Origin: Catenisphaera adipataccumulans
GTDB lineage: Bacteria > Bacillota_I > Bacilli_A > Erysipelotrichales > Erysipelotrichaceae
Length of the DNA: 64,000 bases
Assembly (NCBI RefSeq): GCF_014202755.1
Contig: NZ_JACHHK010000001.1
Location: 186,001-250,000 of the forward strand
Direction of reading: 5' to 3'
Each line of letters opens with the position of its first letter. Positions within the stretch are counted from its first letter, which is position 1. Of this stretch, positions 21,085 to 54,248 are shown piece by piece. Position numbers and translations under genes: made by a program. Below the pieces are notes generated by a model. The model ran no database searches. It saw only the letters and a list, made by a program, of their open reading frames with translations, and was not told the origin of the DNA.

Positions 21085-21086
21085 TA

Positions 21087-26134: not shown

Positions 26135-26179
26135 TACAAGCAAATGAAAACATGCGATTATAGACAGGAGGATAATGTT

Positions 26180-27643
26180 ATGGAATTGATATTAAAAGCA
26201 AAAGACATTCGTGTGGAATTCAAAGGACGCGATGTTTTAGATATAGATGAATTAGAAGTATATGATTATGACCGTATTGGTTTAGTGGGAGCAAATGGTG
26301 CAGGGAAAAGCACTCTACTCAAGGTACTTTTAGGAGAATTAACTCCCCCAGGATGTAAATTAAATCGTCTGGGTGAACTTGCCTATATCCCTCAGTTGGA
26401 CGAAGTAACTTTGCAGAAAGAAAAAGATTTTGCACTTGTAGGAAAGCTTGGTGTTGAACAATTAGATATACAGACCATGAGCGGTGGTGAAGAAACAAGG
26501 CTTAAAATAGCACAGGCTTTATCAGCACAGGTTCATGGTATTTTAGCGGATGAACCTACGAGTCATTTAGACCGTGAAGGAATTGATTTTCTAATTGGAC
26601 AGTTAAAATATTTTACAGGTGCACTGTTAGTTATTAGCCATGACCGTTATTTTCTTGATGAGGTAGTAGATAAAATATGGGAACTGAAAGATGGCAAAAT
26701 CACTGAGTATTGGGGAAACTATTCTGATTATCTTCGCCAGAAAGAAGAAGAACGCAAGAGCCAAGCTGCAGAATACGAACAATTTGTTGCGGAACGTGCC
26801 CGATTGGAAAGGGCTGCAGAGGAAAAGCGAAAACAGGCTCGTAAAATAGGACAGAAGGCAAAAGGTGCTTCAAAGAAAAAAAGTACTGAAGGCGGAGGGC
26901 GTTTAGCTCATCAAAAATCAATAGGAAGTAAGGAAAAAAAGATGCATAATGCCGCTAAATCCCTAGAACATAGGATTGCGGCCTTAGGAAGTGTAGAAGC
27001 TCCAGAAGATATTCGTAGGATTCGTTTCAGGCAAAGTAAAGCATTGGAGCTCCACAATCCATATCCTATTGTCGGTAAGGAAATTAATAAAATATTTGGA
27101 GATAAAGTATTGTTTGAAAATGTATCTTTTCAAATTCCGCTTGGCGCAAAAGTGGCATTAACTGGTGGTAATGGAACAGGAAAAACAACTTTAATCAAAA
27201 TGATCTTAAACCATGAAGATGGAATTTCTATTTCACCTAAGGCAAAAATAGGCTACTTTGCACAAAATGGTTACAAGTACGACAGTAATAAGAAAGTATT
27301 GGAGTTTATGCAGGAAGATAGTGATTACAATGTTTCAGAAATTCGTTCAGTGCTAGCATCGATGGGGTTTAAACAAAACGATATTGGGAAAAGTTTATCT
27401 GTTTTAAGCGGCGGAGAAATTATAAAATTGTTGCTAGCTAAAATGCTTATGGGCAGATATAACATCCTACTAATGGATGAACCAAGCAACTTCCTTGACA
27501 TACCAAGCTTAGAGGCTTTGGAAATTTTAATGAAGGAGTATGCTGGAACTATAGTGTTTATCACCCATGACAAACGGTTGCTTGATAATGTGGCTGATGT
27601 GATTTATGAAATTAGTGATAAGAAAATAAATCTGAAACATTAA
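26180..27643 (+). CDS. msr(D): ABC-F ribosomal protection protein Msr(D)
   Basis: 487 residues, the known Msr(D) length; the ATG at 26180 follows ACAGGAGG. Two ABC domains: Walker A 'GANGAGKST' and 'GGNGTGKTT', signature '[15 protein letters not shown]' and '[15 protein letters not shown]', Walker B '[12 protein letters not shown]' and '[12 protein letters not shown]', joined by a charged antibiotic-resistance linker ('[15 protein letters not shown]'). ABC-F proteins bind the ribosomal E site and dislodge macrolides, ketolides and streptogramin B. No membrane domain. It is regulated by the leader peptide and attenuator just upstream. Confidence 0.94.
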
Positions 27644-27778
27644 ACTTAAGGTAGTCGCTGGTCAGAATAGTCTTCTCTGGCTGGCGGCTTCGTTGTTAAA
27701 GTAAAAAGACTTTTTTTCTTTGGCAAACATTACATTAATGAATATTAAAATAATTTAAATAAGGGAGGTTGGTTATAG

Positions 27779-28225
27779 GTGGTTGATAATAACACAGTCA
27801 TGAAATCTGGGAGATGTATAGAATGTGGAGCTAAAGAGACCGATGGTTTTTCATGCCATGAGCTATTCGGGTTCCCTCTTGTATGGGAGCATAATGATCC
27901 AAAGCTATATGAGTTACATTTTTGGCTTGTTTCGTGCTATATGATCCAGCATCCTTCGAATTTTACTGAAGAAGGATATACAAATTTAGTAAATCTTTTT
28001 ATTAACGCTTTTGATAATGATTGGGATACACCATATATTCTTAAGAAAAATCGAGAAATAGTAAAGTCATTAAGCAAAATAACAAACCCTTTACCAAGCA
28101 ACGCAAGAAAGCGTGAACTAAGACTTTGGCCTATGACAATTGAAGATATATATTTAGGTCGGGAGCAAAATGCAATCGTTAATATTAATAAATGGAAAGA
28201 GCAAATAAGAAACGAATTAAGGTAA
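27779..28225 (+). CDS. DUF5946 family protein
   Basis: 148 residues, GTG start with AGGGAGG upstream. The pattern 'CIECGAKETDGFSCHELFGFPLVWEHND', 'HFWLVSCYMIQHPS' matches the DUF5946 family. The CxxC...C and His residues suggest metal binding. The family's function is unknown; it is occasionally found beside resistance genes. The codon use matches mef and vat around it. Confidence 0.7.
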   Translation: MVDNNTVMKSGRCIECGAKETDGFSCHELFGFPLVWEHNDPKLYELHFWLVSCYMIQHPSNFTEEGYTNLVNLFINAFDNDWDTPYILKKNREIVKSLSKITNPLPSNARKRELRLWPMTIEDIYLGREQNAIVNINKWKEQIRNELR

Positions 28226-28259
28226 TGAAGTAATTAAAGATTAAAGGAGCTAATATTTT

Positions 28260-28898
28260 ATGATAGGACCAGATAAGAAAAAACTTTATCCAAATGAAAA
28301 TATAAAGACGGTTTGTTTTATAAGCAATCTACCTAAAAGACCCAATGTGGAGATTGGGGAATATACCTATTATAGCGATAATAAAAAAACACCGGAGAAA
28401 TTTTATGATAATATAGAGCACCATTACGAATTTCTAGGGGATAAACTTATAATAGGAAAGTTCTGTGCAATTGCAGAGGGTGTTAAGTTTATTATGAATG
28501 GTGCAAATCATAGAATGGATGGAATTACAACCTATCCCTTTAATATCTTTGGCCATGGATGGGAAAAGGTGACTCCTACAATTGAACAACTTCCTTTTAA
28601 GGGAGATACAGTGATTGGCAATGATGTATGGATAGGTCAAAATGTTACCATTATGCCGGGTATTAAAATTGGTGATGGTGCGATTATTGCCGCTAATTCA
28701 ACAGTAGTGAAAAGTGTTGAGCCATATACAATATATGGTGGGAATCCAGCTAAGTTTATCAAAAAACGCTTTAGTGACGAAAAGATTGAATTCTTGCTAA
28801 AGCTACAATGGTGGAACTGGAGCGAAGAGGAAATATTTAATAATCTTGAAATGTTAACATCCAAAGCAGGGTTAGAGCAATTCATGAAAAATTCCTAG
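28260..28898 (+). CDS. vat: Vat-family streptogramin A O-acetyltransferase
   Basis: 212 residues of left-handed beta-helix (hexapeptide repeat) sequence: 'IIGNDVWIGQNVTIMPGIKIGDGAIIAANSTVVK' region. The Vat signature 'IMNGANHRMDG' carries the catalytic His, and 'YPFNIFGHGWEKVTP' lines the acceptor site. It acetylates the free hydroxyl of streptogramin A using acetyl-CoA. Length and motifs are complete. It is a Vat-type enzyme, but I cannot say which named allele, and it may be a new one. AAAGGAG lies ten bases before the ATG. Confidence 0.88.
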   Translation: MIGPDKKKLYPNENIKTVCFISNLPKRPNVEIGEYTYYSDNKKTPEKFYDNIEHHYEFLGDKLIIGKFCAIAEGVKFIMNGANHRMDGITTYPFNIFGHGWEKVTPTIEQLPFKGDTVIGNDVWIGQNVTIMPGIKIGDGAIIAANSTVVKSVEPYTIYGGNPAKFIKKRFSDEKIEFLLKLQWWNWSEEEIFNNLEMLTSKAGLEQFMKNS

Positions 28899-28961
28899 AC
28901 TTGGGGCCTTTCTACCACGGCACAAAAGGGAACTTAAATCTAGGGGGTGCTGGAATCTCGA

Positions 28962-29009
28962 TTTAGCTCTAATTATTGCGAGCTAAAGAAGGCAAGCTTC
29001 ATCTTTAGC
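28962..29009 (+). promoter_or_regulatory. Mutually exclusive hairpins upstream of the lincosamide resistance gene
   Basis: TTTAGCTC (28962-28969) can pair with GAGCTAAA (28980-28987), while GCTAAAGA (28982-28989) can pair with TCTTTAGC (29002-29009); both use GCTAAA, so only one can form. The layout resembles an antibiotic-responsive leader, but I see no clear leader peptide or T-run. Confidence 0.4.
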
Positions 29010-29096
29010 TTTGATTGGAACAATAGACATTATATTATTAGGAGAAATAGCTTTGAGATTTATCACTTATAGATTTAATTTGAACGGAGGGATTAC

Positions 29097-29591
29097 ATGG
29101 TAAGTAAAACTGATGCCATTGAGATAATAACATATGCTGAAGAAAATGATATTAACATTTGGATAGATGGTGGTTGGGGAGTAGATGCTCTATTAGAAGA
29201 AGAAACAAGAGTACACAACGATATTGATTTATTTGTGGAAGAAAGTAATGGTAAAAAGTTTATTGAAATATTAAAAGAATATGGCTTTGCTGAAGTTATC
29301 GAAGCATATACCACCACATCTCATACGGTTTATAAGGATAGTAAAGGTAGGATAATTGATCTTCATATATTTAAATTCAACGAACAAGGATACATTGTTT
29401 TTGAGGGAGAAGCATATCCTCCAGAAGTCTTTAGCGGCATTGGGAAAATAGGCGATAAAACGGTAAGATGTATCGATGCTGAAAATCAAGTGTTATTTCA
29501 TCTGGGCTATGAGCATGATGAAAATGATATGCATGATGTAAAACTATTGTGCGAGAGATTTAATATTCCTGTACCGAGTGAATACAAGTAA
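29097..29591 (+). CDS. lnu: Lincosamide nucleotidyltransferase, Lnu(C)/Lnu(D) type
   Basis: 164 residues. The nucleotidyltransferase signature 'IWIDGGWGVDALLEEETRVHNDIDLFVE' contains GG and the catalytic DxD, and 'HLGYEHDENDMHDVKLLCERF' is the conserved end of the small Lnu proteins. It adenylylates lincomycin and clindamycin. The length equals that of Lnu(C)/(D) as known; the precise allele is uncertain. GGAGGGA precedes the ATG and a terminator follows. Together with mef, msr(D) and vat it completes resistance across macrolides, lincosamides and streptogramins. Confidence 0.85.
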   Translation: MVSKTDAIEIITYAEENDINIWIDGGWGVDALLEEETRVHNDIDLFVEESNGKKFIEILKEYGFAEVIEAYTTTSHTVYKDSKGRIIDLHIFKFNEQGYIVFEGEAYPPEVFSGIGKIGDKTVRCIDAENQVLFHLGYEHDENDMHDVKLLCERFNIPVPSEYK

Positions 29592-29618
29592 CTGACAAAT
29601 TCCGATTCTTAATATATG

Positions 29619-29650
29619 AGTAGAGGCTTTCATAGTCTCTGCTCTTTCTT
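29619..29650 (+). terminator. Terminator after lnu
   Basis: AGTAGAG (29619-29625) pairs with CTCTGCT (29637-29643), one G-T pair, followed by CTTTCTTT. Confidence 0.6.
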
Positions 29651-29654
29651 TATG

Positions 29655-29850
29655 ATGAAGGTGATTGGTCTGACGTAATTTCCGATTGGGACACCACGCC
29701 CGAAGTTAAATGTGTCAGCCCGCCTTCATCGTTCTACATTCGATTCAGCAAGTTGGGAAAGAATGCTTCTCCCGTTTAACGAAAGAATATGAGTGAACCT
29801 TGAAGAGCTGGATCCAATCATAAACCACTTACGAAAGGAGCGTCTTTCTC
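29655..29850 (+). ncRNA. Candidate IS110 bridge-RNA region
   Basis: About 195 untranslated bases directly upstream of an IS110 transposase. IS110-group elements encode a structured bridge RNA of about 170-200 nt in the left non-coding end, with loops that specify target and donor. Local complementarity such as GATGAAGG (29653-29660) with CCTTCATC (29721-29729 region) suggests a folded RNA. Loops and element boundary were not resolved, so this is inference from family knowledge plus position. Confidence 0.45.
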
Positions 29851-31044
29851 ATGATTGCTGTTGGTATTGATGTATCAAAATCCAAGAGTACAGTCGCCAT
29901 TCTCAATGGGGATGGCAGCATCCGTGCCAAACCTTTTGATGTCCACCATGTCGCTGATGAGCTGCAGGCATTAGTAGATTACATCAAGAGGACTTCCGAA
30001 CCTCCAACCATTCTTATGGAGCCTACCAGCCACTATCATTATCCACTTCTGAAAGCCTTTCAGGAAGCGGAACTCCCAGTCTGTCTGATCAATCCATACC
30101 AGATGAAGAAGTATGGCGATACCGAACTCAGAAAGGCGAAAACGGACAAACGTGATTCTCTGCGAATCGCTCAGTATGCCCTTGAGAAGTCCTATTCGCT
30201 GATTCCTTACACTCCTCAGGACCAGAAGTATGAAGATCTCCGTTTTCTGTCCAGGCAATACAGTCAGAGGATATCAACCCTAACTGTTGCCAAAGTTCAG
30301 CTGCTCAGCCTTCTGGATGAAACAATGCCCGGCATTACGACCATTCTCCCTCTTAAAAGCAGGGATCCCGACAACTGTGTGCTTCTGCGTTTCATTAAGC
30401 GTTTCAAGTCTTTCGATGTAATCCGTAAGATGGGCAAGGCACGTTTCCTGGACAGCTATCAGGTCCTCGTCAAGAAGACAAAGGATCGTTTTGCCGGTTC
30501 TAAGGGACTTGCTATCTATGAGTTGGTCCTTAACAGTGTTACCACCCGTGGAGAAAATCCCTTATCCGCAATGACTCAGGATCAATGTGTTGATCTCGTA
30601 TCCACATCTCAGAAAGCTGCCGATGAGATCAATCTTCAAATGCGGATCATAGCAGAGACCATGCCGGAGTACAAAGTGCTTCGTTCTATGGCCGGCGTGG
30701 GGGGCCGACTGGGACCGATCATTCTTGGAGAAATCGGTGACATTCGCCGTTTTCACAGTGGCAAAGCACTCAATGCTTATGTCGGCAATGATGCTCCGCC
30801 ATATCAGTCCGGACAATTCGAGAGCCGGAATCGTCACATCTCCAAACGTGGCAACCCGGCTCTAAGAAAAGCTTGTTTTGAGGTAATGCAGGCTCTCAAA
30901 CTGACAAAACCTCAGGACGATCCTGTTTACCTTTTTCTGCTCAAAAAGGAACAGGAAGGGAAACCATACAACGTAGCCAAAATGGCTGCCGTCAATAAGT
31001 TTCTGCGGATCTACTACGCTCGTGTAATGGAGTTGTACAAGTAA
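29851..31044 (+). CDS. IS110-family transposase
   Basis: 397 residues. The N-terminal RuvC-like DEDD domain shows 'AVGIDVSKSKSTVAIL' (Asp), 'ILMEPTSHYHYPL' (Glu) and 'RKAKTDKRDSLRIAQYAL' (Asp-Asp). The C-terminal Tnp20 domain shows 'LRSMAGVGGRLGPIILGEIGDIRRF' and 'YVGNDAPPYQSGQFESR', with the Ser of PYQSG as likely nucleophile, then 'RGNPALRKACFEV'. It works with a bridge RNA to recombine donor and target DNA. It is full length and looks active. Confidence 0.93.
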   Translation: MIAVGIDVSKSKSTVAILNGDGSIRAKPFDVHHVADELQALVDYIKRTSEPPTILMEPTSHYHYPLLKAFQEAELPVCLINPYQMKKYGDTELRKAKTDKRDSLRIAQYALEKSYSLIPYTPQDQKYEDLRFLSRQYSQRISTLTVAKVQLLSLLDETMPGITTILPLKSRDPDNCVLLRFIKRFKSFDVIRKMGKARFLDSYQVLVKKTKDRFAGSKGLAIYELVLNSVTTRGENPLSAMTQDQCVDLVSTSQKAADEINLQMRIIAETMPEYKVLRSMAGVGGRLGPIILGEIGDIRRFHSGKALNAYVGNDAPPYQSGQFESRNRHISKRGNPALRKACFEVMQALKLTKPQDDPVYLFLLKKEQEGKPYNVAKMAAVNKFLRIYYARVMELYK

Positions 31045-31200
31045 ATCCGTCCGCTTTCATTATAGCCGTTAACTGCCGGCCTGCAACAGCAGGTCTTATT
31101 AAGGTTACTCTCTTTTTTGTTCTCAAGGTTCTCGAAATCTTCAAAAATCTGCTTGACAAACATTAGCAAGATTTAATTAGAATTTAGAGGAGGAAAAGAT

Positions 31201-31395
31201 ACGGCACGTTCTATTAAAGATTCCCTTTCTGGATTTGGAAGTGAACTGTTGGAACGAATAAGAGAAGATAGCAATGCAAGGCTAGATGAAGCTGACTTTG
31301 AAGAAAGAGTCATTGGGATTTATGCCTTAGCGAAGCAAAGGAATTTTTGCAGCAAGAAAGATACACTGAAGAAAAGTAAAGGATTCCTGTTGTAA
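31201..31395 (+). pseudogene. Small ORF fragment with ACG in place of a start codon
   Basis: 64 codons reading 'TARSIKDSLSGFGSELLERI' and 'EADFEERVIGIYALAKQRNF'. AGGAGG (31190-31194 region) is well placed, but the expected start is ACG (31201-31203), which suggests an ATG-to-ACG change. I do not recognise the family. It may be a relic of the element that brought in the resistance genes, or a gene weakly translated from ACG. Confidence 0.4.
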
Positions 31396-31446
31396 ACATC
31401 CCAAAGATAAATTTAGTTTAACGATACTAATTACATGTAAGGGAAT

Positions 31447-31471
31447 CGACAATACTGTGCACAGATTGTCG
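31447..31471. promoter_or_regulatory. 25-bp near-perfect palindrome upstream of AraC/GyrI gene
   Basis: CGACAAT (31447-31453) mirrors ATTGTCG (31465-31471) around CTGTGCACAG, itself a palindrome. It lies about 50 bases before the regulator start and could be its operator or the loop of an RNA leader. Confidence 0.5.
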
Positions 31472-31522
31472 GATGGATAAATGCATCCTCTGATAATATT
31501 GATGATGAAAGGAGGTTGTTTG

Positions 31523-32401
31523 ATGGATTCTTTAAGAAGTATGAATAATGCATTGGAGTATATTGAAGAGCACTTAACAGAGGAAATTGATTATATTGAA
31601 GTATCTAAAATCGCATATTGTTCAGAGTATCATTTCAAGCGGATGTTTTCTTTTTTAGCAGGCATAAGTTTATCAGAATATATTCGGAGAAGAAGACTGA
31701 CGTTGGCTGCACTTGATTTGAAAGATAGGGATTTGAGAATAATTGATGTAGCCGTCAAATATGGCTATAATTCGGCTGATTCATTTTCCCGTGCTTTTCA
31801 TTCTCTGCATGGCATTCTCCCTTCTGAGGCAAGGAGTGAGAATACACAATTAAAAGCTTATCCTCGAATGACCTTTCAATTATCAATTAAAGGAGGATGC
31901 GAAATGAACTATCGTATTGTTGAGAAAGGACCTTTTAAGTTAGTAGGATTTAAGAAGAGAGTTCCAATTATTTTTGAAGGTGTCAATCCAGAGATTGCAA
32001 AAATGACTGAACTTTTAACCATGGATGTTATTAATCAATTAAAAGCAATTTCAAATGTAGAACCTACAGGTATTATTAGTGCTTCCACTAATTTTTCAGA
32101 AGGTAGAATGGAAGAGAAAGGAGAATTAGATCATTACATCGGGGTAGCAACATCAAGTAATGAAACTGCAGATTTTGATGTATTAAAAATTGATGCTAGT
32201 ACCTGGGCTGTATTTGAATCGATTGGACCATTTCCGGAAACACTTCAAAATGTGTGGGGTAGGATATACTCAGAGTGGTTTCCATCTTCAGGATACGAGG
32301 CGGTTGAAGGTCCTGAAATTTTATGGAATGAGAGTCCAGACACTGGAAATCCAAAGTATCGAAGCGAAATCTGGATTCCAGTAAAGAAAAAAGACTATTG
32401 A
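31523..32401 (+). CDS. AraC-family regulator with GyrI-like effector domain
   Basis: 292 residues from the ATG at 31523, which follows AGGAGG. Residues 1-105 hold the two AraC HTH motifs ('[41 protein letters not shown]' and '[25 protein letters not shown]'). Residues about 125-292 form a GyrI-like small-molecule domain ('[18 protein letters not shown]' to '[16 protein letters not shown]'). Rob/BmrR-type relatives sense drugs and induce efflux. The target genes are not clear here; the neighbouring palindrome suggests autoregulation. It is AT-rich like the resistance genes. Confidence 0.87.
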
Positions 32402-43939: not shown

Positions 43940-44701
43940 TTATTCAGGATAGATCAGTTGTACATGTTCCGCTTCCAGGATATCGACCCATTCATCCGAC
44001 GGCCGGCAGTCGGTCACCAGATAATCGATCTGCGCAAAGCTGCTCAGCTTGATAAAAGCCGTCTGATCAAACTTTGTATGATCCGCCATCAGCATCACAC
44101 GGTCAGCGTGCTTCAGCATTTCTTTCTTGATTTCGGTTTCTCCCTCATACGAATCCAGAACTCCTTGGCTACGGATCAGGCCTTTGCATCCGATCACGGC
44201 CAATTTCGCATTGAAATTACGGATCGCATTCTTGGTTACTTCCCCTTGAAAGGACATCGAATTGTTATTGAAGATCCCGCCGGTCGAGATCACATGCATC
44301 TTGATATTCGCCGGATCAAGAAACAGCTCCGCTGAATTCGTCACCACGATCATATCCGGATCATCCTGTATCAGCCGCATCGCTTCCAGCACCGTACTGC
44401 TCGCATCCGCAAAGAGGATCGTATACGGCCGGATCACTTCCGCCGCAGATACTGCCAGCTTGCGCTTGGCTTCCAGATTCCGTTTCTGCCGATGATAAAA
44501 GTACACGCCTTCAAAACGGATGGACTCGTTCCAAATGGCTCCGCCATGGACCCGTGTGACCATACCGACAGCTTCCAGTTTATCCAGATCGCGGCGCACT
44601 GTTTCCTGCGTGATGTTCCACTTCTGACTCAATTCCGATACAGTAACTTTCCCTTGGTCATGAATGTATTGCTGCATTTCGTCAATTCGATGATTTGCCA
44701 T
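43940..44701 (-). CDS. DeoR-family regulator (YdjF-like)
   Basis: 253 residues: N-terminal HTH 'IHDQGKVTVSELSQKWNITQETVRRDLDKLEAVGMVTRVHGGAIW', the DeoR signature, then a sugar-phosphate isomerase-like sensor domain ('TILFADASSTVLEAMRLI', 'IGCKGLIRSQGVLDSYEGE'). It is the last gene of the sugar operon, in the place of E. coli ydjF. A phosphorylated sugar from the pathway is the likely inducer. Confidence 0.88.
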   Translation of the reverse strand: MANHRIDEMQQYIHDQGKVTVSELSQKWNITQETVRRDLDKLEAVGMVTRVHGGAIWNESIRFEGVYFYHRQKRNLEAKRKLAVSAAEVIRPYTILFADASSTVLEAMRLIQDDPDMIVVTNSAELFLDPANIKMHVISTGGIFNNNSMSFQGEVTKNAIRNFNAKLAVIGCKGLIRSQGVLDSYEGETEIKKEMLKHADRVMLMADHTKFDQTAFIKLSSFAQIDYLVTDCRPSDEWVDILEAEHVQLIYPE

Positions 44702-44754
44702 TTTCTAACCTCTTGGGATTATTGTACCGCTTTCCTGTATTTCCTGTCAAAAAC

Positions 44755-46110
44755 CTATTTACTTGGCTCTTTATAGTAAATTTCTTTGTTTAATACACCT
44801 TCTTTGACACAAACGATCACATTGGTTGCCGCATCGCCGATCACATTCAGCGTAATAACAGCCATGCCCGGTAAATAATTCATCGCCAAGACCAGTGAAT
44901 AGCCGATCATGCACAATTCCGAGTTCAAACCTAAGCCCATCATGATAATATACACCATCGTCGTACCGGCAACCGGAATGGCCGGTGTACCCATGGCTGT
45001 ACAAATCGACAGGAACGCAGCTGTCACCAACATTGACGGCGTCACATCAATTCCCGCCGCGGTCGCAATAAACGTGATCGCGATCATGTGCATCGCTGTG
45101 GTACCGTTCATATTGACAGTCATACCGGTCGGCAGGATAAAGCTGGAAATTTCTTCCGAACAGCCTAATTCATCCACACAAGTCTTTGTATTTAATGGCA
45201 GCGTTGCAGCCGATGAATTGGTAGCCGCTGCGAACATACCCACTTTGAATACCTTCTTCATGAATGGAATCGGGTTTAATCGGGTGGTTAAGAAGATACC
45301 AATTGGGTAGATCGTGCTCACCAGGATCAGACTGACGACGATCGTCGTTGCCATCCATACAAATGTCGGTCCGATGTATTCCGTACCATAAACGGCCAAA
45401 GCGCGCGTGATCATGCAGAAGATCGCATACGGTCCGATGCGATTGATCAAAAAATTCAGATACATCTGGATCACATCATTTAAATTCTGGATCACGTTCT
45501 TCAGCGGATCACATTTCTCGCCCATGTGCGACATGCACAATCCTAAGATCAAGGCGACGACCACCACCGCTAAGATCGAGCTATTGGATGTAAAAGCTTC
45601 AAAAATATTGCTCGGGACGGCATTGATCAAAGTCACCAGCGGATTGTAGCTGTCCATCGTGGAAATTTCCGTTGCCTGGTTTGCCGGCAGATCCACAGAA
45701 AACCAGCCCATTGTCTTGACAAAATAGGCGGCCGTTCCTGCCAGTGCGGCAGCAACGACATAGAAACAAATGTAGGTTAAGAAAGTCTTTCCGGCAATGC
45801 GGCTCAGCTTTTTTGGATCGCCCAATGAGCAGATCGCCAACGACAGCGAAGTCAGCACCAACGGTACGATCGCCATCTGCAGTCCGCGCATAAACAGCTG
45901 ACTGACAATATAGAACAGGCCGATGCCTTCAAATCCTTTGGTTTCGGAAATGTCCTGGAACAAAACGGCATCCAGGACGCGCCATACGGAACTGGACGAG
46001 CCGCCCAGGGCATTGCGCAAGGCGATCATTAAAAATCCGCATACAAAACCCAGGCCGACTGCCCACATCATACGCCGTACGATTGAGGTCTTTTTTCGTT
46101 TCTCTTTCAT
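44755..46110 (-). CDS. Dicarboxylate/amino-acid:cation symporter (DAACS family)
   Basis: 451 residues with about eight spans plus re-entrant loops. Signatures: 'NSSAATLPLNTKTCVDELG' (serine-rich loop), 'SSFILPTGMTVNMNGTTAMHM', 'ITFIATAAGIDV' and 'GTPAIPVAGTTMVYIIMMGLGL'. It imports C4-dicarboxylates, glutamate or related acids with Na+ or H+. It lies between the aldo/keto reductase and DeoR genes of the ydj-like operon, where E. coli has none, so it may bring in an acidic substrate for the same pathway. Confidence 0.88.
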   Translation of the reverse strand: MKEKRKKTSIVRRMMWAVGLGFVCGFLMIALRNALGGSSSSVWRVLDAVLFQDISETKGFEGIGLFYIVSQLFMRGLQMAIVPLVLTSLSLAICSLGDPKKLSRIAGKTFLTYICFYVVAAALAGTAAYFVKTMGWFSVDLPANQATEISTMDSYNPLVTLINAVPSNIFEAFTSNSSILAVVVVALILGLCMSHMGEKCDPLKNVIQNLNDVIQMYLNFLINRIGPYAIFCMITRALAVYGTEYIGPTFVWMATTIVVSLILVSTIYPIGIFLTTRLNPIPFMKKVFKVGMFAAATNSSAATLPLNTKTCVDELGCSEEISSFILPTGMTVNMNGTTAMHMIAITFIATAAGIDVTPSMLVTAAFLSICTAMGTPAIPVAGTTMVYIIMMGLGLNSELCMIGYSLVLAMNYLPGMAVITLNVIGDAATNVIVCVKEGVLNKEIYYKEPSK

Positions 46111-46149
46111 TTACTGCTCCTTTTTCGCACGACATCCTTCCTTTTTATT

Positions 46150-47136
46150 CTATCGATCCAATGCTTCCGCCATTGCGCGCATCTTCTTGTTGTCTTCTTC
46201 CGACAATACGATGTCTGCCGCTACGGCGTTCATCTTTACCTCATCCGGTGTCGTAGCTCCGGTCAGTAGGTTGATGGAGGATCCTTGGTTCATGATCCAA
46301 GCCAGGCATAATGCCGGAATCGATGCGTTGTATTTTTCTGCCAGCGGCTTCCATGCATCCAACATATCGATGACTCGTTCCATGTTGCCCGGCTGCCACC
46401 ATTTCTTATTGGCACGCGCATTACCTGGTTCCGGACGATAATCTTTTGAAATGGTTCCAGTCAGCAGACCTTGTTCCAGTGGGGAATACGCCTGCATCGT
46501 GATCTTGTTTTCCACGCATAACGGAATCAATTCTTTTTCAACTGCACGATCCAATACACTGTATTTGCCTTGTACCAGATCCAGCTCACAGTATTTCAGA
46601 TATTCCTTGATCTGATCAATGCTGACGTTCGCTGCACCGATGGCACGGATCTTGCCTTCTTTTTTCAGCTCGTTCAAGGTTTCGACCGTATCTTTGATCG
46701 GTGTTTCGAACGGCGGCACGGACGGCCAGTGTGTCATATACAAATCGATGTGGTCTGTCTGCAGACGTTCCAATGACTCCTCTACTTCCAGACGGATCGA
46801 TTCCGGTGTCAGCAGTTTATACAGCTGACGGTCGCCGACTTTGTTCCAAGGCGTTCCCTTCCGGGTCCAGACGACCCCGCATTTGGTGACCAATACGACC
46901 TTGTCACGATCAACCTTTTTCAATGCTTTCCCGACGATGCGTTCACTGTTGCCGAAATTGTATCCCGGTGCCGTATCGATCAAGTTGATGCCCTGATTGA
47001 CCGCTTCTACGATCGTATCAATGCAGCGCTGTTCATCTAAGTCGCCGCTCCATGCCGGTCCGCCGCCGATGGCCCACGTACCTAATCCCATCTTGGACAC
47101 TTGAATGCCCGAACTTCCTAACTCTTCGTATCTCAT
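46150..47136 (-). CDS. Aldo/keto reductase (YdjG-like)
   Basis: 328 residues of AKR barrel: 'NLIDTAPGYNFGNSERIVGKAL' (catalytic Asp and Tyr), 'LVTKCGVVWTRKG' (Lys), 'DLYMTHWPSVPPFETPI' (His) and 'AYSPLEQGLLTG'. In E. coli the same position (ydjG) is held by an NADH-dependent reductase of small aldehydes such as methylglyoxal. Here it would reduce an aldehyde released by the aldolase; the exact substrate is unknown. It lies 15 bases after the kinase gene. Confidence 0.9.
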   Translation of the reverse strand: MRYEELGSSGIQVSKMGLGTWAIGGGPAWSGDLDEQRCIDTIVEAVNQGINLIDTAPGYNFGNSERIVGKALKKVDRDKVVLVTKCGVVWTRKGTPWNKVGDRQLYKLLTPESIRLEVEESLERLQTDHIDLYMTHWPSVPPFETPIKDTVETLNELKKEGKIRAIGAANVSIDQIKEYLKYCELDLVQGKYSVLDRAVEKELIPLCVENKITMQAYSPLEQGLLTGTISKDYRPEPGNARANKKWWQPGNMERVIDMLDAWKPLAEKYNASIPALCLAWIMNQGSSINLLTGATTPDEVKMNAVAADIVLSEEDNKKMRAMAEALDR

Positions 47137-47151
47137 CTTGATTCCTTCCTT

Positions 47152-48120
47152 CTATTTCGTAATGTTGTACTGACGGCGATATTCTGCCAGACGTTCGTCA
47201 AACATGGCACGGTTTTTCAAACCGGCCGTTGCCCCGATGCTTTGAATAGCGATCGAAGCTGCAACATTGCCGTACTGGCCGCATTCTTCTACGCTCTTTC
47301 CCTCCAACAAGCCGGTAATAAAACCGGATGCGAAGTTGTCTCCGGCACCGATGGTGTCCAGTGCAGTGATGCCTTTGACAGCCGGCACGATCAGATTGGT
47401 GCCGTCACTGCCGTAAATAAAGACACCGCGTTTGCCAATTTTAATGACGGCATGTTTTACACCGTAGGAAATGATCTTTTTGGCCACTTTTTCTAAATCG
47501 GTTTCACCGGTCATCAGCTGTGCTTCATCCACATTTGGGAAGAAGTAATCTACATAACTCAGCGCTTCCTTGAAACCATCAAAGGTTTCCTGCAGCCGCG
47601 GTTTGATCATATCTGCGACAATGATCATGCCGGCTTCTTTTGCCTTACGGAAGATCTTGACCAAAGCATCGTTATCCAGCAGCGGATTGTTGAAAAAGCT
47701 TGCCAAGGAAAGGATCTTTGCCTGCGGGATCAGATCGAGATCAACATCATCGATATTCATCTTCCACAAACTGCCGTTTAAATTCGTGATGAACGTCCGT
47801 TCACCGTTGGCTGTGACCAAGCCAATATTGATGGATGTGTCCACGCCGGGACGCAGCACGACCCCTGTATGATCGATGCCTTCTTTTTCACAATGTTCCA
47901 CGATGTATTTACCGACCGCATCATCACCGGCCATACTGATGAGGCCGACCTTATGACCGAGCCGGGAAATGATCGTGCTTTCGTTGATGGCATCGCCGCC
48001 GATGGTCATCGAGATCTGCTCCAGCGGATACGACTCAATATCGAAGACATTCTTACTGACGGGTGTCAGCGGAATGTCTACAATTGCCGCACCGACACAA
48101 ATGACGTCGAGCGATTTCAT
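47152..48120 (-). CDS. PfkB-family sugar kinase (YdjH-like)
   Basis: 322 residues from the ATG at 48120, one base after the aldolase stop; a longer upstream frame is only the aldolase gene read out of frame. PfkB signatures: 'GGDAINESTIISRLGHKVGLISMAGDD' at the N-terminus and 'DTIGAGDNFASGFITGLLEG' (catalytic Asp) at the C-terminus. The opening 'LDVICVGAAIVDIPL' is strongly like E. coli YdjH as I remember it. It phosphorylates a ketose or keto-sugar acid before aldol cleavage. Confidence 0.9.
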   Translation of the reverse strand: MKSLDVICVGAAIVDIPLTPVSKNVFDIESYPLEQISMTIGGDAINESTIISRLGHKVGLISMAGDDAVGKYIVEHCEKEGIDHTGVVLRPGVDTSINIGLVTANGERTFITNLNGSLWKMNIDDVDLDLIPQAKILSLASFFNNPLLDNDALVKIFRKAKEAGMIIVADMIKPRLQETFDGFKEALSYVDYFFPNVDEAQLMTGETDLEKVAKKIISYGVKHAVIKIGKRGVFIYGSDGTNLIVPAVKGITALDTIGAGDNFASGFITGLLEGKSVEECGQYGNVAASIAIQSIGATAGLKNRAMFDERLAEYRRQYNITK

Positions 48121-48121
48121 A

Positions 48122-48958
48122 TTAGTTTGCCTTGCCGTCGTCTCCAAATAAGCGAATCTTATACAGAGCGCGCTCTTTAATGGCAGCCCGTACCGCACGT
48201 TCCAGTTCCAGGAATGGCTTGTCGGTATTTTTATTGATGGCTTCCATCGCTGCCTGGCACAATTCTGTATGAATATTGATCTTGGCGATTCCCAATGAAA
48301 TGCACTTTCGGATATCTTCATCTCCGATACCGCTGGCACCGTGCAGGACCAACGGCACGTCGACTGCATCGCGGCAGGCCTTGACGACATCGAAGTTCAG
48401 TTTCGGTTCTGAACTATAGACACCGTGCACATTGCCGATCGCAACAGCCAAAGAATCACAGCCCGTACGTTCAACAAATTCTGCCGCCTGGCTCGGGTCT
48501 GTGTACTTATAACCGCTCAATGCTTCTTCATAAACTGTTTCATTGCCGACATGGCCCAGTTCTGCTTCTACCGGGATACCCAGCGGATGGAAATAATCCA
48601 CAGCTGTTTTGATTTCTTTGATGTTTTCTTCAAACGGCAGGGCCGAAGCATCCCGCATCACGGAGTTCATGCCGTGATTATAGGCATTCTGGATGATTTC
48701 CATGCTGCGGCCATGATCCCAGTGACAAATCACCGGTACGCTGGCTGCTTTGGCCATCGATACCATCATGTTGGAGAAATCCTCAAACGATGTGTTGCCG
48801 ACAAAACCGGTTCCGAATGAAATGATGATCGGTGCTTTTGCTTCTTCCGCTGCATCGATTACGCCCATCAGCATTTCTGCATTCCATACATTAAAATGCG
48901 GAATGGCATATTTACCTTCTTTTGCTTTGTTTTCCCAATAACGAATATCCGCTAACAT
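48122..48958 (-). CDS. Class II aldolase (YdjI-like)
   Basis: 278 residues. Zinc ligands and catalytic residues: 'HWDHGRS' near 80, 'EAELGHVGNE' near 132, 'NVHGVYSSEPKL', 'LHGASGIGDEDIRKC' and 'IAKINIHTEL'. The opening 'MLADIRYWENKAKEGKYAIP' and 'HFNVWNAEMLMGVIDAAEEAK' correspond closely to E. coli YdjI, better than to FbaA or GatY. It should cleave a ketose-1-phosphate into DHAP and an aldehyde; YdjI's physiological substrate is unsettled. Confidence 0.92.
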   Translation of the reverse strand: MLADIRYWENKAKEGKYAIPHFNVWNAEMLMGVIDAAEEAKAPIIISFGTGFVGNTSFEDFSNMMVSMAKAASVPVICHWDHGRSMEIIQNAYNHGMNSVMRDASALPFEENIKEIKTAVDYFHPLGIPVEAELGHVGNETVYEEALSGYKYTDPSQAAEFVERTGCDSLAVAIGNVHGVYSSEPKLNFDVVKACRDAVDVPLVLHGASGIGDEDIRKCISLGIAKINIHTELCQAAMEAINKNTDKPFLELERAVRAAIKERALYKIRLFGDDGKAN

Positions 48959-48976
48959 ATCTATGTTCCACCCTTT

Positions 48977-50032
48977 CTATTCATCGCCGGCGATCTTGAT
49001 GACCCCTTTGACCATATTTGCTTTCTTTTCCGGATCGATGGCTTCGCTGAATGCTTTCTGTACATCTTCAAACGGATAGACATTCGTCACCATGTCCTTG
49101 ACATTGAATTTACCCGTTGCGATGGCTTCGATCGTCTGCGGGTAGTTGTTGCAGTAACGGAACGAAGTCTGGATCGTGACTTCACGGTTGATCTTCAGGA
49201 AATCGATCGGTACCGGTTTGGACTGCGTGCCGACCATCATGATCTTGCCGCCGCGGGCAACCACCTGAACGGCCTGATTGGCTGTAAAGGCAGAACCAGC
49301 ACATTCAAAGACCAGATCTACACCGTGATCTCCAAAGTTTTCTTCACTGCGTAAAACTTCCACCGCATTTTCATCCTTGCCGTTGATGACTGCTTTCGCA
49401 CCAAGTTTCAATGCCAGATCCAGGCGTTTCTGCAGAACATCGACAACGGTAATATCCGTCGCGCCCAACGAACGGCAGGCCTGCAAAGTCATCAGACCGA
49501 TCGTTCCGCCGCCGAAGATCACGATGTGGCTGCCTAATGTTGCACCGCCTAAGATGGCCGCATGCATACCGACGGAAGCTGGTTCCACCAAAGCGCCTTC
49601 CATCAGGCTCATGCCTTCCGGCAGCGGGTAGCACCATTCTTCCGGATGTGTCATATATTCTGTCAGCGCACCGCGGTAATTCGGCTGCGTGGCCATGAAA
49701 TCAACATCCGGGCAGATATTATAGCGTCCGGTCCGGCAGTATTCACACGTATCATCCGGTACACCCGGTTCAACGATGACCTGATCACCGACTTTGAATT
49801 TCTTGACATCTTTGCCGACTTTGACAACGGTGCCGGCCAGTTCATGGCCCAGACCAATTTCCTGGTTCGGATCTTTCGGAGGAATAAAAGGACCGAACTC
49901 AAAGCCGTGAATGTCGCTGCCGCACATACCGACGTAAGCGACTTTAATTAATACTTCATGGTCATTTGGTTCCGGGATCGGAGCTTCTTTGATGACCATT
50001 TTTTTAGGATGTTCTAAGATTGCTTTTTTCAT
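48977..50032 (-). CDS. Zinc-dependent medium-chain dehydrogenase (YdjJ-like)
   Basis: 351 residues: catalytic zinc region 'CGSDIHGFE' and 'GLGHELAGTVVKVG', structural zinc 'EPGVPDDTCEYCRTGRYNICP', Rossmann 'VIFGGGTIGLMTLQACRSLGA'. This is the sorbitol/threonine dehydrogenase group. It would oxidise a polyol or sugar hydroxyl to a ketone with NAD+. The gene keeps the ydjJ position next to the aldolase (18-base gap). Confidence 0.9.
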   Translation of the reverse strand: MKKAILEHPKKMVIKEAPIPEPNDHEVLIKVAYVGMCGSDIHGFEFGPFIPPKDPNQEIGLGHELAGTVVKVGKDVKKFKVGDQVIVEPGVPDDTCEYCRTGRYNICPDVDFMATQPNYRGALTEYMTHPEEWCYPLPEGMSLMEGALVEPASVGMHAAILGGATLGSHIVIFGGGTIGLMTLQACRSLGATDITVVDVLQKRLDLALKLGAKAVINGKDENAVEVLRSEENFGDHGVDLVFECAGSAFTANQAVQVVARGGKIMMVGTQSKPVPIDFLKINREVTIQTSFRYCNNYPQTIEAIATGKFNVKDMVTNVYPFEDVQKAFSEAIDPEKKANMVKGVIKIAGDE

Positions 50033-50060
50033 ATTATTTTCTTCTTTCTATCTATGAAAA

Positions 50061-50131
50061 CCATCGGATACAGGCGGTAAATACATGGATTCTAAATACT
50101 GGAAAGGAATTGAACTTGCCTGTATCGATGG
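50061..50131. promoter_or_regulatory. Long hairpin between MFS and dehydrogenase genes
   Basis: CCATCGGATACAGGC (50061-50075) pairs with GCCTGTATCGATGG (50118-50131), one bulge, loop of 42 bases, no T-run. Probably an mRNA processing or stability element that sets relative expression within the operon. Confidence 0.5.
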
Positions 50132-50142
50132 ATTTCGGTTTA

Positions 50143-51528
50143 TTAATCGACGTTTCCGATATCTTCAACGGATTCACCGCGGGTCTCGACGCCTAAGAAT
50201 GCAACACCGATCGCGATGATCGCAGCGACGATGGCCAGCAGAACGAAGACATAACTGGAACTCTGGGCTGCCAGCGCTGTTACTAAGAATGGGAAGAAAA
50301 CGTTGCTGACACGTCCCATCGCATTACAGAAACCTGAACCGGACATCTTTGCCGAGGTCGGCCACATTTCCGGTACATATACAGCACTCGCGTAGCAGAC
50401 ATACATATAGATGATCGTGTTCATCAGGAACATCAAGACGATCAATCCGGTCATTCCGACCCAGCCGTTCATGGTCGCCATACCGATGATGATACCGAAG
50501 CCGGCCATGCCGATCAGTAAGAGGATTCCCATTTTCTTCCGCGGTACTTTATCCATGATCAAGGAAGCGATAAAGATGCCGAACGGTGCACCGAATAAGC
50601 CGAATACTGTCATGAACTGCGACTGTGAAGTATCATAGCCAAGTCCGGAAAGCAGCGACGGCATCCAGTTCATCAAGGTATACTGAATAGTGTTCATACC
50701 GATCAGAACCAACGAACCGACAATGGTGCGGCGCAGCAGTTTGCCATGGAACAAAGCACGATACGGCAGACGTTTTACCGGTGCCGGTTCGGCTTCGATC
50801 GGCGGCAGCGGCTTGCCAGTTTCGGCTTCGATTTCTTTTTCAACTGCTGTAACGATCGCATCGGCTTCTTCCACACGACCCTGGCTTTCCAGCCAACGCG
50901 GACTTTCTGGGAATTTTTTCCAGATCAGGATCGTTGCGATGATCGATAAGATCGACGGGATCATAAATTCCACACGCCAGTTCAAATCATAATCCATGCC
51001 GGACATGATCAGCAGCAGTGCGATCAAGTTGCAGATTGGATGCGCCCAGTTGCCGATAAAGGAGGTACGGCTTGACCAAGTTCCGCGGTTGCGGCCCGGA
51101 ACATATTCCGTAAATCCGGCAAACAAGACAACCAACAATGCACCCAGCGCAAATCCTTGCAGCAGACGGAATACGTATAATACGTAGACATTCGGTGACA
51201 AGGCAGCACCGATCATCACGATGATGTGCATGATCTCATAGACGATGATCGAACGTTTCCGGCCGATCTTATCGCCGATCGGACCGCCGATCAGTGCGCC
51301 GAACAATTGGCCCACCGTATAGGTCGTTCCCCATAAAGCCAGCAGCGTCGTGCCTGGTTTCAGCCAGTGCAGTTCATTCAGCAGAATATTTTGTACGGCT
51401 CCGCCGATACCGTTTGACCAGCATACCAACAAGGCAAATGCGGTTACCAGCCACATTTTTGTATGCCAGCGTGAATTCGGCAGGCGGTCCAGCCGCGCGC
51501 CGATATTCGCTCCCTTTGTTTCGTTCAT
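50143..51528 (-). CDS. MFS sugar transporter (YdjK/YdjE-like)
   Basis: 461 residues, 12 spans. MFS loop motifs: 'GGPIGDKIGRKRSIIVYEI' after helix 2 and 'PESPRWLESQGRVEEADAI' at the central loop, as in sugar-porter relatives. The C-terminal 'GVETRGESVEDIG' fits the same group. It probably imports the pathway's sugar, polyol or sugar acid with a proton. Same operon position as ydjK. Confidence 0.9.
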   Translation of the reverse strand: MNETKGANIGARLDRLPNSRWHTKMWLVTAFALLVCWSNGIGGAVQNILLNELHWLKPGTTLLALWGTTYTVGQLFGALIGGPIGDKIGRKRSIIVYEIMHIIVMIGAALSPNVYVLYVFRLLQGFALGALLVVLFAGFTEYVPGRNRGTWSSRTSFIGNWAHPICNLIALLLIMSGMDYDLNWRVEFMIPSILSIIATILIWKKFPESPRWLESQGRVEEADAIVTAVEKEIEAETGKPLPPIEAEPAPVKRLPYRALFHGKLLRRTIVGSLVLIGMNTIQYTLMNWMPSLLSGLGYDTSQSQFMTVFGLFGAPFGIFIASLIMDKVPRKKMGILLLIGMAGFGIIIGMATMNGWVGMTGLIVLMFLMNTIIYMYVCYASAVYVPEMWPTSAKMSGSGFCNAMGRVSNVFFPFLVTALAAQSSSYVFVLLAIVAAIIAIGVAFLGVETRGESVEDIGNVD

Positions 51529-51546
51529 TCTGTAAATTCTCCTTCT

Positions 51547-52233
51547 TTAATGATTTAATGCTTGATCCACTTCGTGCTCCATGATGTCCCAGGCCTTTTC
51601 AATATCCGGATCTTTATTCCATAATGCCGGCGGACCTAAAACAACAACGTCGGCACCCGCTTCATATAGCGGCCGATAGATATCTTTATTCATGGAACCG
51701 TCCGCTTCGATCAGGAAATCCAGTCCCTGTTCTTTGCGCCAGCGTGCCAACGTGCGGATCTTGTCATACATTGGTTCGATGACCTTCTGACCGGCATAGC
51801 CGGCATCCACGATCATGATGGTCACTTTTGACAACAGCGGCAGATAATAACGGATGGCATCCAGGGAAGAAGCCGGGTTCAGTGCAACACCGGCTTTGCA
51901 TCCCAGGCTGCGGATCTTATTGAAGGTGACAAATGCATCGCTTTCAATGCAGTCGGTATGCGGCGTGATGTAAGCCGCACCGGCTTTGGCGCATTCTTCA
52001 AGGATCCACTGCGGATGTTTGACCATCAGATGCGCATCCATCGGTGTGGATACATGTGGTTTTAATGCCTGCATGAAATCCGGACCGATGCTGTAGGTTT
52101 TTACATAATTGCCGTCTTTGATGTCAATGTGCAGAAAGTCCGCCCGCTGATCGATGTATTCGACTTGATGCGCAAAATCAAACAAGTCGCAGCATCCCAT
52201 CGACGGGGCTAACAGTAGTTTCTTTTCCGCCAT
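51547..52233 (-). CDS. Ribulose-/allulose-phosphate 3-epimerase family protein
   Basis: 228 residues of the RPE barrel: 'LAPSMGCCDLFDF', metal-binding 'FLHIDIKDGNYV', 'PMDAHLMVKHP', 'IMIVDAGYAGQ' and 'DFLIEADGSMN', the phosphate-binding loop near 'VVLGPPALWN'. It looks nearer to allulose-6-phosphate epimerase (AlsE) than to housekeeping Rpe. This step is not in the E. coli ydj cluster and implies inversion at C3 of a phosphorylated ketose here. Confidence 0.85.
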   Translation of the reverse strand: MAEKKLLLAPSMGCCDLFDFAHQVEYIDQRADFLHIDIKDGNYVKTYSIGPDFMQALKPHVSTPMDAHLMVKHPQWILEECAKAGAAYITPHTDCIESDAFVTFNKIRSLGCKAGVALNPASSLDAIRYYLPLLSKVTIMIVDAGYAGQKVIEPMYDKIRTLARWRKEQGLDFLIEADGSMNKDIYRPLYEAGADVVVLGPPALWNKDPDIEKAWDIMEHEVDQALNH

Positions 52234-52235
52234 GA

Positions 52236-53396
52236 TCAGAATTCGTAATCGTTCGGTGTTGCTTCTTCACCGTATTCTGCAACGTCTTTATCGTCTTCGT
52301 CATAATGGAAGATGACCTTGACAGCAGATTTGTCAGCCATGGCTTTGAAGCCTTCTTTCCATTGCGACAGACCCAAACGATGTGTGATCATCGGCTGTAC
52401 CTGGACAGCGCCGCTCTTCAGCAGACGGATGCATTCACGCCATGAAGTAGAATCATATGCCTGATGGCCGATGATGCTTTTATTCATTTCCGTAATATTA
52501 TTGATCGAGAATTCCAACGGTTTGAAGCCCATGCCGACACGGACCACTTCGCCGTTCGGGCGTAACATTTCCAGTGCCTGCTTCATCGCAATATTGGCAC
52601 CGGAACATTCAATGACCAGGCCTAAGTTATCGCGTCCGCAGATCTCCAGGCAGCGTTTCACAACATCTTCTTTGGAGCCATTGACACAATGAGTTGCACC
52701 GACCTGACGGGCAATCGGGAAACGCGTTTCCACATCTTCCTGCAAACCGACCATCACGATGTTGACGGCACCCATGATGCGGGCAATCTGAACGGAGAAT
52801 AATCCCAGCGGACCGGTACCGAAGACAACAACATCCTGACCTGGCAGCAGGCTGGACTGCTGAGCAACTGCTTTATAAGCATTGGCAATCGGATCCAATA
52901 CAGCTGCTTCTTCGTATTTCACACCTTCCGGAATTTCCCAGATCGCATGCGGATGCAGTTTCAAGATACCGCCCGGGATCTTTGCATATTTTGTGAATCC
53001 GCCGGAACCGCCGAATACTTTGTAATTATGATCCAGTCCCAGTCCGCTGCGATGTTCACATAACATGAAGTCGCCGCGTTCGCAGGCCGGACATTTGCCG
53101 CACGCCTGACCGCTGTTATCCGAAACAACACGCTGACCGACTTTCCAGTCTTTGACGTTTTCACCGACTTTGACGATGACGCCGGAGAATTCATGGCCGC
53201 GGATCGAATCCAATTCTTGAGAATGATTTTCATTGTTCAGATCTGCGTACCAGTGTTTCATATCAGCACCGCAGATCGCGGCTGCCTTTAATTTGATAAT
53301 GATGTCATCCGGACCGCATACCGGAGCTTCCAGATCAATGTAATGGTATCCACCAAATTCACCTTGATCACTGCAATAACGAGTTAATGCTTTCAT
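52236..53396 (-). CDS. Zinc-dependent medium-chain dehydrogenase (YdjL-like)
   Basis: 386 residues: 'CGADMKHWY' and 'IRGHEFSGVIVKVGENV' (catalytic zinc), 'DNSGQACGKCPACERGDFMLC' contains the structural-zinc cysteines, Rossmann 'VVFGTGPLGLFSVQIARIMGA'. First gene of the operon, with ydjL as positional counterpart. GAGGAAATC precedes the ATG. It probably performs the first oxidation of the imported polyol. Confidence 0.9.
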   Translation of the reverse strand: MKALTRYCSDQGEFGGYHYIDLEAPVCGPDDIIIKLKAAAICGADMKHWYADLNNENHSQELDSIRGHEFSGVIVKVGENVKDWKVGQRVVSDNSGQACGKCPACERGDFMLCEHRSGLGLDHNYKVFGGSGGFTKYAKIPGGILKLHPHAIWEIPEGVKYEEAAVLDPIANAYKAVAQQSSLLPGQDVVVFGTGPLGLFSVQIARIMGAVNIVMVGLQEDVETRFPIARQVGATHCVNGSKEDVVKRCLEICGRDNLGLVIECSGANIAMKQALEMLRPNGEVVRVGMGFKPLEFSINNITEMNKSIIGHQAYDSTSWRECIRLLKSGAVQVQPMITHRLGLSQWKEGFKAMADKSAVKVIFHYDEDDKDVAEYGEEATPNDYEF

Positions 53397-53596: not shown

Positions 53597-53662
53597 AAAG
53601 CGGATATTCCTTTTGAATATCCGCTTTATTTCAAAAAAAACAGCCTGCCGCATCGCGGCAGG
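53597..53662. terminator. Two hairpins separating the ydj-like operon from the camS cluster
   Basis: AAGCGGATATTC/GAATATCCGCTT (53598-53626) is a near-perfect bidirectional stem. CCTGCCGC/GCGGCAGG (53644-53662) is followed on the minus strand by eight T and ends the 53676-54248 gene. Confidence 0.88.
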
Positions 53663-53675: not shown

Positions 53676-54248
53676 TTATCGTTGGATTTCGTTCACCAGT
53701 TCTTCATCTTTGGCGGTGGTCATGTTGTCGGTCTGTTTCTTACCGGCACCGGTCTTAGTAATTTCAATAAAGATCTGTCCATCCGATGTGTGTGTATCAT
53801 CCACAAGATAATTAAAGCAATTGATTTCCAGATCATACATCTTGCCGTCATCGGAATTGGTAAAATACGTATTGATCGGACAGATGTCATCGACTTTATT
53901 GTATGCCTCATCAGCAGCACTTTTAATGGTTGCTTCATCCGCGTCATCGCTCATGTTCATATTGATTCGCAGCGTCGCACTTTTCAAATTCACCGTGACC
54001 GAATCAACATTGTCGATCGATGAGACCGCATCCTTGATCTGGGAAATTTGATCATCGGAAATTTCCGGATTCAGGTCATTCGAACCGAAACGGCTGCCGA
54101 CGACCGGCGTGCTCTGTGTCAGCACGCTGCCTTGAATAACGAAGAAGATCAGCAAAAACGGAACCGCTATCAGGATCAACGTGATCCAGACCAGCTTATG
54201 CCCTTGTTTCGGTGCCGATCCTTTATTTTTCCTATTATTTCTGGCCAT
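53676..54248 (-). CDS. Membrane-anchored extracellular protein, unknown
   Basis: 190 residues: basic N-terminus ('ARNNRKNKGSAPKQGHK'), one membrane span (about 20-42), then a 145-residue acidic extracellular domain with 'ISQIKDAVSSIDNVDSVTVNLKSATLRINM', a BON-like or ferredoxin-like alpha/beta pattern. No family recognised. It lies 43 bases after camS and ends at a terminator, so it probably shares the camS transcript. Confidence 0.6.
   Translation of the reverse strand: MARNNRKNKGSAPKQGHKLVWITLILIAVPFLLIFFVIQGSVLTQSTPVVGSRFGSNDLNPEISDDQISQIKDAVSSIDNVDSVTVNLKSATLRINMNMSDDADEATIKSAADEAYNKVDDICPINTYFTNSDDGKMYDLEINCFNYLVDDTHTSDGQIFIEITKTGAGKKQTDNMTTAKDEELVNEIQR

Follow-up and report, generated by a model that had tools for sequence, protein, structure and literature searches.

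Which pathway is encoded by an operon that combines counterparts of the Escherichia coli ydj genes with an epimerase and a DAACS symporter, and what do these two proteins say about its substrate? Such an operon was found in a 64,000-nucleotide stretch of Catenisphaera adipataccumulans DNA (referred to as the window). Our comparisons show that it is a recurrent Firmicute and Actinobacterial variant of the known ydj pathway. Its epimerase is conserved and sister to AlsE, but judging by aligned residues it has apparently lost the usual grip on phosphate.

Gene content and order of the operon

Nine intact open reading frames were found on the minus strand, arranged head to tail from position 53396 to 43940. 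Their order is L, epimerase (P), the MFS gene K, J, I, H, G, the DAACS gene (D) and F, where single letters stand for the ydj genes. Families were assigned with NCBIfam and Pfam, and identities were taken from BLASTP against the ydj proteins of E. coli K-12. The elements of the operon, with protein lengths in amino acids (aa), are as follows:

53597..53662, minus strand: two terminator-like hairpins belonging to the gene upstream, after which the operon begins
52236..53396, minus strand: YdjL orthologue, first gene, zinc-dependent dehydrogenase, 386 aa, 70% identity to E. coli YdjL (BLASTP), Pfam ADH_N/ADH_zinc_N
51547..52233, minus strand: epimerase, 228 aa, sister of AlsE/Rpe, G200-P201-P202 replacing the phosphate loop
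50143..51528, minus strand: YdjK orthologue, MFS transporter, 461 aa, 50% identity to YdjK and 39% to YdjE
48977..50032, minus strand: YdjJ orthologue, zinc-dependent dehydrogenase, 351 aa, 63% identity
48122..48958, minus strand: YdjI orthologue, class II (dihydroxyacetone phosphate, DHAP) aldolase, 278 aa, 81% identity, E=1.3e-150 to solved YdjI 6ofu
47152..48120, minus strand: YdjH orthologue, PfkB kinase, 322 aa, 62% identity, E=2e-124 to solved YdjH 3h49
46150..47136, minus strand: YdjG orthologue, aldo/keto reductase, 328 aa, 65% identity, NF049922
44755..46110, minus strand: DAACS (SDF) symporter, 451 aa, altered ligand pocket, PF00375 E=2.3e-80
44750-44721, minus strand: promoter-like site ahead of ydjF
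43940..44701, minus strand: YdjF orthologue, DeoR-type regulator, 253 aa, 42% identity
43904..43933, minus strand: terminator-like hairpin, 13 pairs followed by a T run, end of the operon

Each orthologue has the expected ydj protein as its top match in the E. coli cluster, over nearly the full length. The direction and order in E. coli K-12 are identical (ydjL-K-J-I-H-G-F-E, with YdjE a second MFS transporter past ydjF). An earlier note made from the sequence alone had placed a DeoR regulator, aldo/keto reductase, PfkB kinase, class II aldolase, dehydrogenase, MFS transporter and second dehydrogenase in the order ydjF-G-H-I-J-K-L. This reading is borne out by one-to-one matches of 42-81% identity, and the epimerase between K and L and the symporter between F and G are located where the note had put them. 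The note had also described both the kinase and the aldolase as especially close to their E. coli counterparts; the aldolase is indeed the closest, but YdjL and YdjG come next and not the kinase. The kinase start is probably 48120, directly after the aldolase, while the longer start called mechanically is 48390.

Against the sequences of the PDB, the aldolase scored 503 bits with solved YdjI and 195 with the next entry, and the kinase 418 bits with YdjH and 110 with the next. The aldo/keto reductase scored 552 bits where the curated YdjG cut-off is 550 (NF049922, NCBIfam). The wide margins to YdjI and YdjH make the ydj identification secure and exclude the tagatose and sulfoquinovose pathways for these enzymes. 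Use of tagatose or sorbose, the alternative weighed in the earlier note, is thereby ruled out, as is galactitol use, and the aldolase was observed not to be closest to GatY/KbaY or to FBA. The sulfo-EMP2 pathway was likewise rejected because the aldolase is not closest to SqiA. For YdjJ the nearest solved sequence is 5vm2, named 'alcohol dehydrogenase'. The 110-bp gap between ydjK and ydjJ contains nested inverted repeats with arms of 11 and 9 nucleotides (window 50056-50136), a possible RNA hairpin.

Distribution of the epimerase-containing layout

We surveyed named ydj loci, the best 80 of 105 confirmed, and the epimerase was found in 37 of these 80. Three groups were noticed in this set. 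The first has L-P-K-J-I-H-G with F and D and occurs in Lachnospiraceae, Oscillospiraceae, Atopobiaceae and others; the second comprises the enterobacteria, with L-K-J-I-H-G-F-E and no P; the third consists of loci without K. Two Pasteurellaceae loci (L066 and L088) have K and D present and P absent. The earlier note had called the epimerase and the symporter extra genes, which is correct relative to E. coli, but together they form a common layout outside the enterobacteria and are not peculiar to this genome.

Among the 81 loci, of 87, with L, J and I all in view, P was present in 40, accompanied by K in all 40, by D in 37 and by E in none; the L017 epimerase was counted here by identity alone. 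Its frame (L017:6680-7243) is only 188 aa and is possibly a damaged copy. The presence of P changes five times on the tree. Searches of the open PMC library, which lacks most subscription journals, turned up no title or displayed abstract dealing with ydj in Firmicutes or in combination with an epimerase.

Operon limits and origin

In the window, the operon sits between an ABC gene that ends at 43899 and a gene for a 190-aa protein (53676-54248). In the related genome G012 (68% complete), position 2183 of the contig marks the end of the ABC gene, and next come the homologue of the 190-aa gene (2303-2857) and a CamS gene, with no operon between the ABC gene and that homologue. YdjI at E<=1e-120 was detected in one of the 195 genomes of the window's family, its own. 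In a tree of L, J and I, from which the duplicate loci L112, L116, L117, L118 and L121 were excluded and in which the L017 epimerase was scored as absent, the window groups with L026 and L056 (both Atopobiaceae), L032, L119, L120, L027, L028 and L031 (nine rows, support 100). This clade is rich in Atopobiaceae, and the window's G-D-F order is common to L026, L032, L056, L119 and L120. Acquisition by horizontal transfer is the simplest reading and probably the correct one.

The epimerase

The epimerase has a Ribul_P_3_epim domain (Pfam, E=2.5e-45) and is closest to AlsE by sequence. Its best NCBIfam model is PRK09722 (AlsE) at 251.9 bits, which is under the 271 cut-off of the AlsE equivalog NF007266. 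A predicted model forms a TIM barrel (mean predicted local distance difference test, pLDDT, 86; predicted template-modelling score, pTM, 0.87), and the nearest fold is AlsE 3ct7 with a template-modelling score (TM-score) of 0.88 by query length. Residues H35, D37, H68 and D178, which we take to be the catalytic His/Asp set, were found to be invariant in all 22 epimerases of the catalytic-residue alignment.

The position of the phosphate loop is different. Of 38 epimerases, our loop alignment includes the 36 with coverage >85%, leaving out L017 and L054, a copy at a contig end; it shows GPP in 35 and GSP in one. The corresponding residues are GTS in AlsE (VGTSGLF) and AGS in an Rpe-like paralogue of the window genome (L007). 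We assume that the GTS/AGS loop binds the far phosphate in AlsE and Rpe; two prolines take away backbone and side-chain donors. With GPP in place of the AlsE loop, an ordinary ketose-6-phosphate substrate is therefore unlikely. Since the ydj phosphate is placed on C1 (octuluronate-1-phosphate), a far-phosphate site would not be expected, and the GPP loop and C1 phosphorylation would thus agree with each other. The description AlsE-like in the earlier note holds for the sequence and the fold but not for the phosphate loop, which is not kept.

The window genome has three other Rpe-like genes. We also searched a sample of 397 genomes from the family to which the genome with L010 belongs, and found YdjI in eight and matches to the epimerase query in seven. 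Six of the matches are at least 65% identical; every one comes from a genome with YdjI and shares a contig with that gene at a distance of about 3.3 kb. The seventh (46% identity, genome G491) is a true AlsE with GTS, located beside ROK-kinase and sugar-ABC genes. Six of nine genomes searched have ydj without a clustered epimerase, and no copy was found elsewhere in any of the six (best 39% identity). The epimerase is cleanly absent between L and K in L120, whose close relative L119 has it. An epimerase found only in YdjI carriers, yet absent from some ydj loci, is therefore a dedicated but dispensable part of the pathway. A chance neighbour is ruled out by the co-occurrence with YdjI in the 397 genomes. 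Allose or allulose use is ruled out by the AlsE score below cut-off, the GPP loop and the separate location of the true AlsE of G491.

The DAACS symporter and other importers

The DAACS protein aligns with solved aspartate/glutamate transporters. In 45 relatives, SSAA and the Asn of transmembrane helix 8 (TM8) are retained. At the Asp394 position, 44 have Gly and one has Glu; Arg is absent from the Arg397 position throughout (Val in 43, Ile in one and Leu in one); and the NMDGT motif has become NMNGT or HMNGT, with Asn at D312 in all 45. The TM8 Asp and the Arg presumably serve DAACS proteins as ligands for the amine and the side-chain carboxylate respectively. The altered pocket would then lack the charged residues that read amino acids, which fits a single carboxylate without an amine and equally fits other ligands.

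Importers were found to vary in loci without K. Liv-type ABC genes are present in L029, L036, L046, L053, L070, L071 and L082-L085, and LplB/YtcP-type ABC genes in L040, L042 and L067; L035 and L063 have K together with Liv. The DAACS and Liv importers belong to families whose known substrates are mostly acids and amino acids.

Gene modules beside ydj in related loci

In L029, L036, L046 and L053, the Liv-type importer is followed by genes for a rhamnulokinase-like FGGY kinase, a FucA-like aldolase and a xylose-isomerase-like TIM barrel. If YdjI releases an aldose-like product, such a set of isomerase, ketose-1-kinase and DHAP aldolase could act on it; the substrate would then be long, for example the eight-carbon acid of the in vitro work. 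However, ydjH and ydjG were not found in L029, and the FGGY kinase may instead replace YdjH there. In L024, genes for a glycerate kinase and another TIM-barrel isomerase are located just upstream of ydjL, an arrangement that would fit a shorter substrate.

Genes for an aminotransferase, an RraA-like aldolase, 5-oxoprolinase (pxpABC), or a 2-hydroxyacid or glutamate dehydrogenase flank 12 of the 16 loci without K (L024, L029, L040, L042, L046, L067, L071, L080 and L082-L085) and none of the 65 with K. The queries for these islands came from loci without K, and contig ends limit L024, L030, L070 and L071. In L085, pxpB lies 45 bp after ydjH. The island aminotransferase occurs in 14 of the 397 genomes, and only G576 of these has YdjI. 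In three of seven fetched regions of such genomes it adjoins a DAACS gene whose protein is 57-58% identical to that of the window, with a partial DAACS match in a fourth. DAACS relatives of the window's protein adjoin the aminotransferase in the 5-oxoprolinase islands L152, L153 and L154, which are without ydj. In Corynebacterium, 5-oxoproline uptake is reported to rely on a different transporter family (PMC13274462).

Proposed pathway and alternative readings

NCBI names E. coli YdjH and YdjI as L-glycero-L-galacto-octuluronate kinase and L-glycero-L-galacto-octuluronate-1-phosphate aldolase. These enzymes are reported to prefer a carboxylate end in vitro, with the phosphate on C1 (PMC9602453, PMC11194214). 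From these data and the alignments we infer the following substrate and order of reactions. YdjK and/or the altered DAACS symporter would take up a polyol or sugar with an acid end, either an aldonate or a uronate and perhaps a long one, and YdjL and/or YdjJ would oxidise it to a 2-ketose with a carboxylate and not a phosphate at the far end. The epimerase would invert C3 beside the ketone, on a substrate lacking phosphate at the end that carries it in the substrates of Rpe and AlsE, and a second C3 epimer would thus also reach a form that YdjI accepts. YdjH would then phosphorylate C1, YdjI would cleave the product to DHAP and an aldehyde acid, and YdjG may reduce the latter. The earlier note had taken the two added genes as clues to a C3-epimeric ketose and perhaps an acid, and the present evidence supports this indirectly only. 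A horizontally acquired, ydj-type catabolic operon with this acid-ended route has, as a whole, about an even chance of being the right description.

Several observations weigh against it. The operon may have been lost in relatives instead of gained here, the G012 genome being just 68% complete. The enterobacteria, the Pasteurellaceae and L120 have the ydj pathway without the epimerase, and independent-pairs tests of P against transporter type were not significant; that association is strong in counts but comes from few independent events. The loop does vary, as L008, another Rpe-like paralogue, reads SGG at this position, and an acid substrate does not follow from the Liv and LplB importers.

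The same operon might act on a neutral polyol or ketose, with the epimerase working on the free ketose or its 1-phosphate and the carboxylate preference in vitro being incidental. The GPP loop says only that the far end is not phosphate, YdjJ resembles ketose reductase and sorbitol dehydrogenase, and YdjL resembles xylitol and threonine dehydrogenases. We nevertheless consider a neutral substrate unlikely, given that DAACS and Liv importers, mostly of acid and amino-acid families, occur in the relatives and that carboxylate ends are reported to be preferred in vitro. A six-carbon 5-ketoaldonate (ketohexuronate), cleaved by YdjI to DHAP and tartronate semialdehyde and then reduced by YdjG to glycerate, would suit the glycerate kinase and TIM-barrel isomerase genes upstream of ydjL in L024. 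Of the 16 loci without YdjK, a single one has that arrangement, a longer product would better suit the kinase-aldolase-isomerase module found in four loci, and the E. coli enzymes are named for an eight-carbon substrate; a six-carbon one is improbable.

Very improbable, too, is a role of the epimerase as ordinary AlsE or Rpe, feeding the pentose phosphate or an allulose route and placed in the operon for convenience. PRK09722 as the best model, though below 271 bits, and the predicted fold nearest to AlsE 3ct7 would suit such a role, but GPP in 35 of 36 sequences, a subfamily found only with YdjI in the 397 genomes, the three other Rpe-like genes of this genome, and the GTS of the true AlsE of G491 beside its ROK-kinase and sugar-ABC genes all argue otherwise. 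Least probable of all, with only a slim chance, is a substrate in which a sugar or polyol is joined to a glutamate- or pyroglutamate-like acid. On this reading, the chain with a far carboxylate that is preferred in vitro would mimic the conjugate, whose single carboxylate would be recognised by the altered DAACS and the Liv importers, and in some lineages the acid half would be used by the products of neighbouring genes for 5-oxoprolinase, an aminotransferase and an RraA-like aldolase. The flanking acid-metabolism genes at loci without YdjK and the proximity of pxpB to ydjH in L085 weakly support such a conjugate. Set against them, the island aminotransferase meets YdjI in a single one of its 14 genomes, these queries found no such genes in 20 kb of sequence surrounding the operon of the window, and no conjugate-splitting enzyme was seen.

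Other features of the window

A low-G+C stretch at window 19646-32401 (37-39% at 24-32 kb) contains genes for a phage-type integrase, a serine recombinase and an IS110 transposase, together with mef(A)-type, Msr-type ABC-F and Vat-family genes above curated cut-offs. To judge from these gene families, it is a mobile element carrying putative macrolide/streptogramin resistance genes.

Comparison with known systems

C3 epimerisation of a ketose is a narrow chemistry, and the absence of the phosphate loop restricts the possible positions of the phosphate. Together with the second kinase, aldolase and isomerase and the varied importers, the epimerase constrains the substrate of ydj. Useful additions to what is known of this pathway are a ydj-bound epimerase whose phosphate loop has changed, a DAACS symporter with an altered pocket and, in relatives, alternative gene modules. 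The E. coli ydj promoter is reported to have been consistently activated during mouse gut passage (PMC6561318).

Compared with ydjFGHIJKL of E. coli K-12, the window has seven orthologues in identical order and strand (42-81% identity); it has the epimerase gene inserted between L and K, has the DAACS gene inserted between G and F, and is without YdjE. The epimerase has the TIM barrel and the catalytic His/Asp residues in common with AlsE (D-allulose-6-phosphate 3-epimerase, PDB 3ct7) and ribulose-phosphate 3-epimerase, but it has GPP instead of GTS or AGS and its subfamily was seen only with ydj. The SDF domain, the SSAA of helical hairpin 1 (HP1) and the TM8 Asn and Asp are common to DAACS/SDF symporters of glutamate, aspartate and C4-dicarboxylates, whereas window-type proteins have no Arg at R397, Gly at D394 in 44 of 45 and Asn at D312 in 45 of 45. 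The window aldolase belongs to a different clade from SqiA, with 170 and 166 bits to 8q57 and 8q58, which we take to be SqiA structures, against 503 to YdjI. The sulfo-EMP2 pair SqiK and SqiA likewise combines a kinase with a class II aldolase, and the ketose 1-phosphate on which it works is acidic at the far end (PMC12890257).

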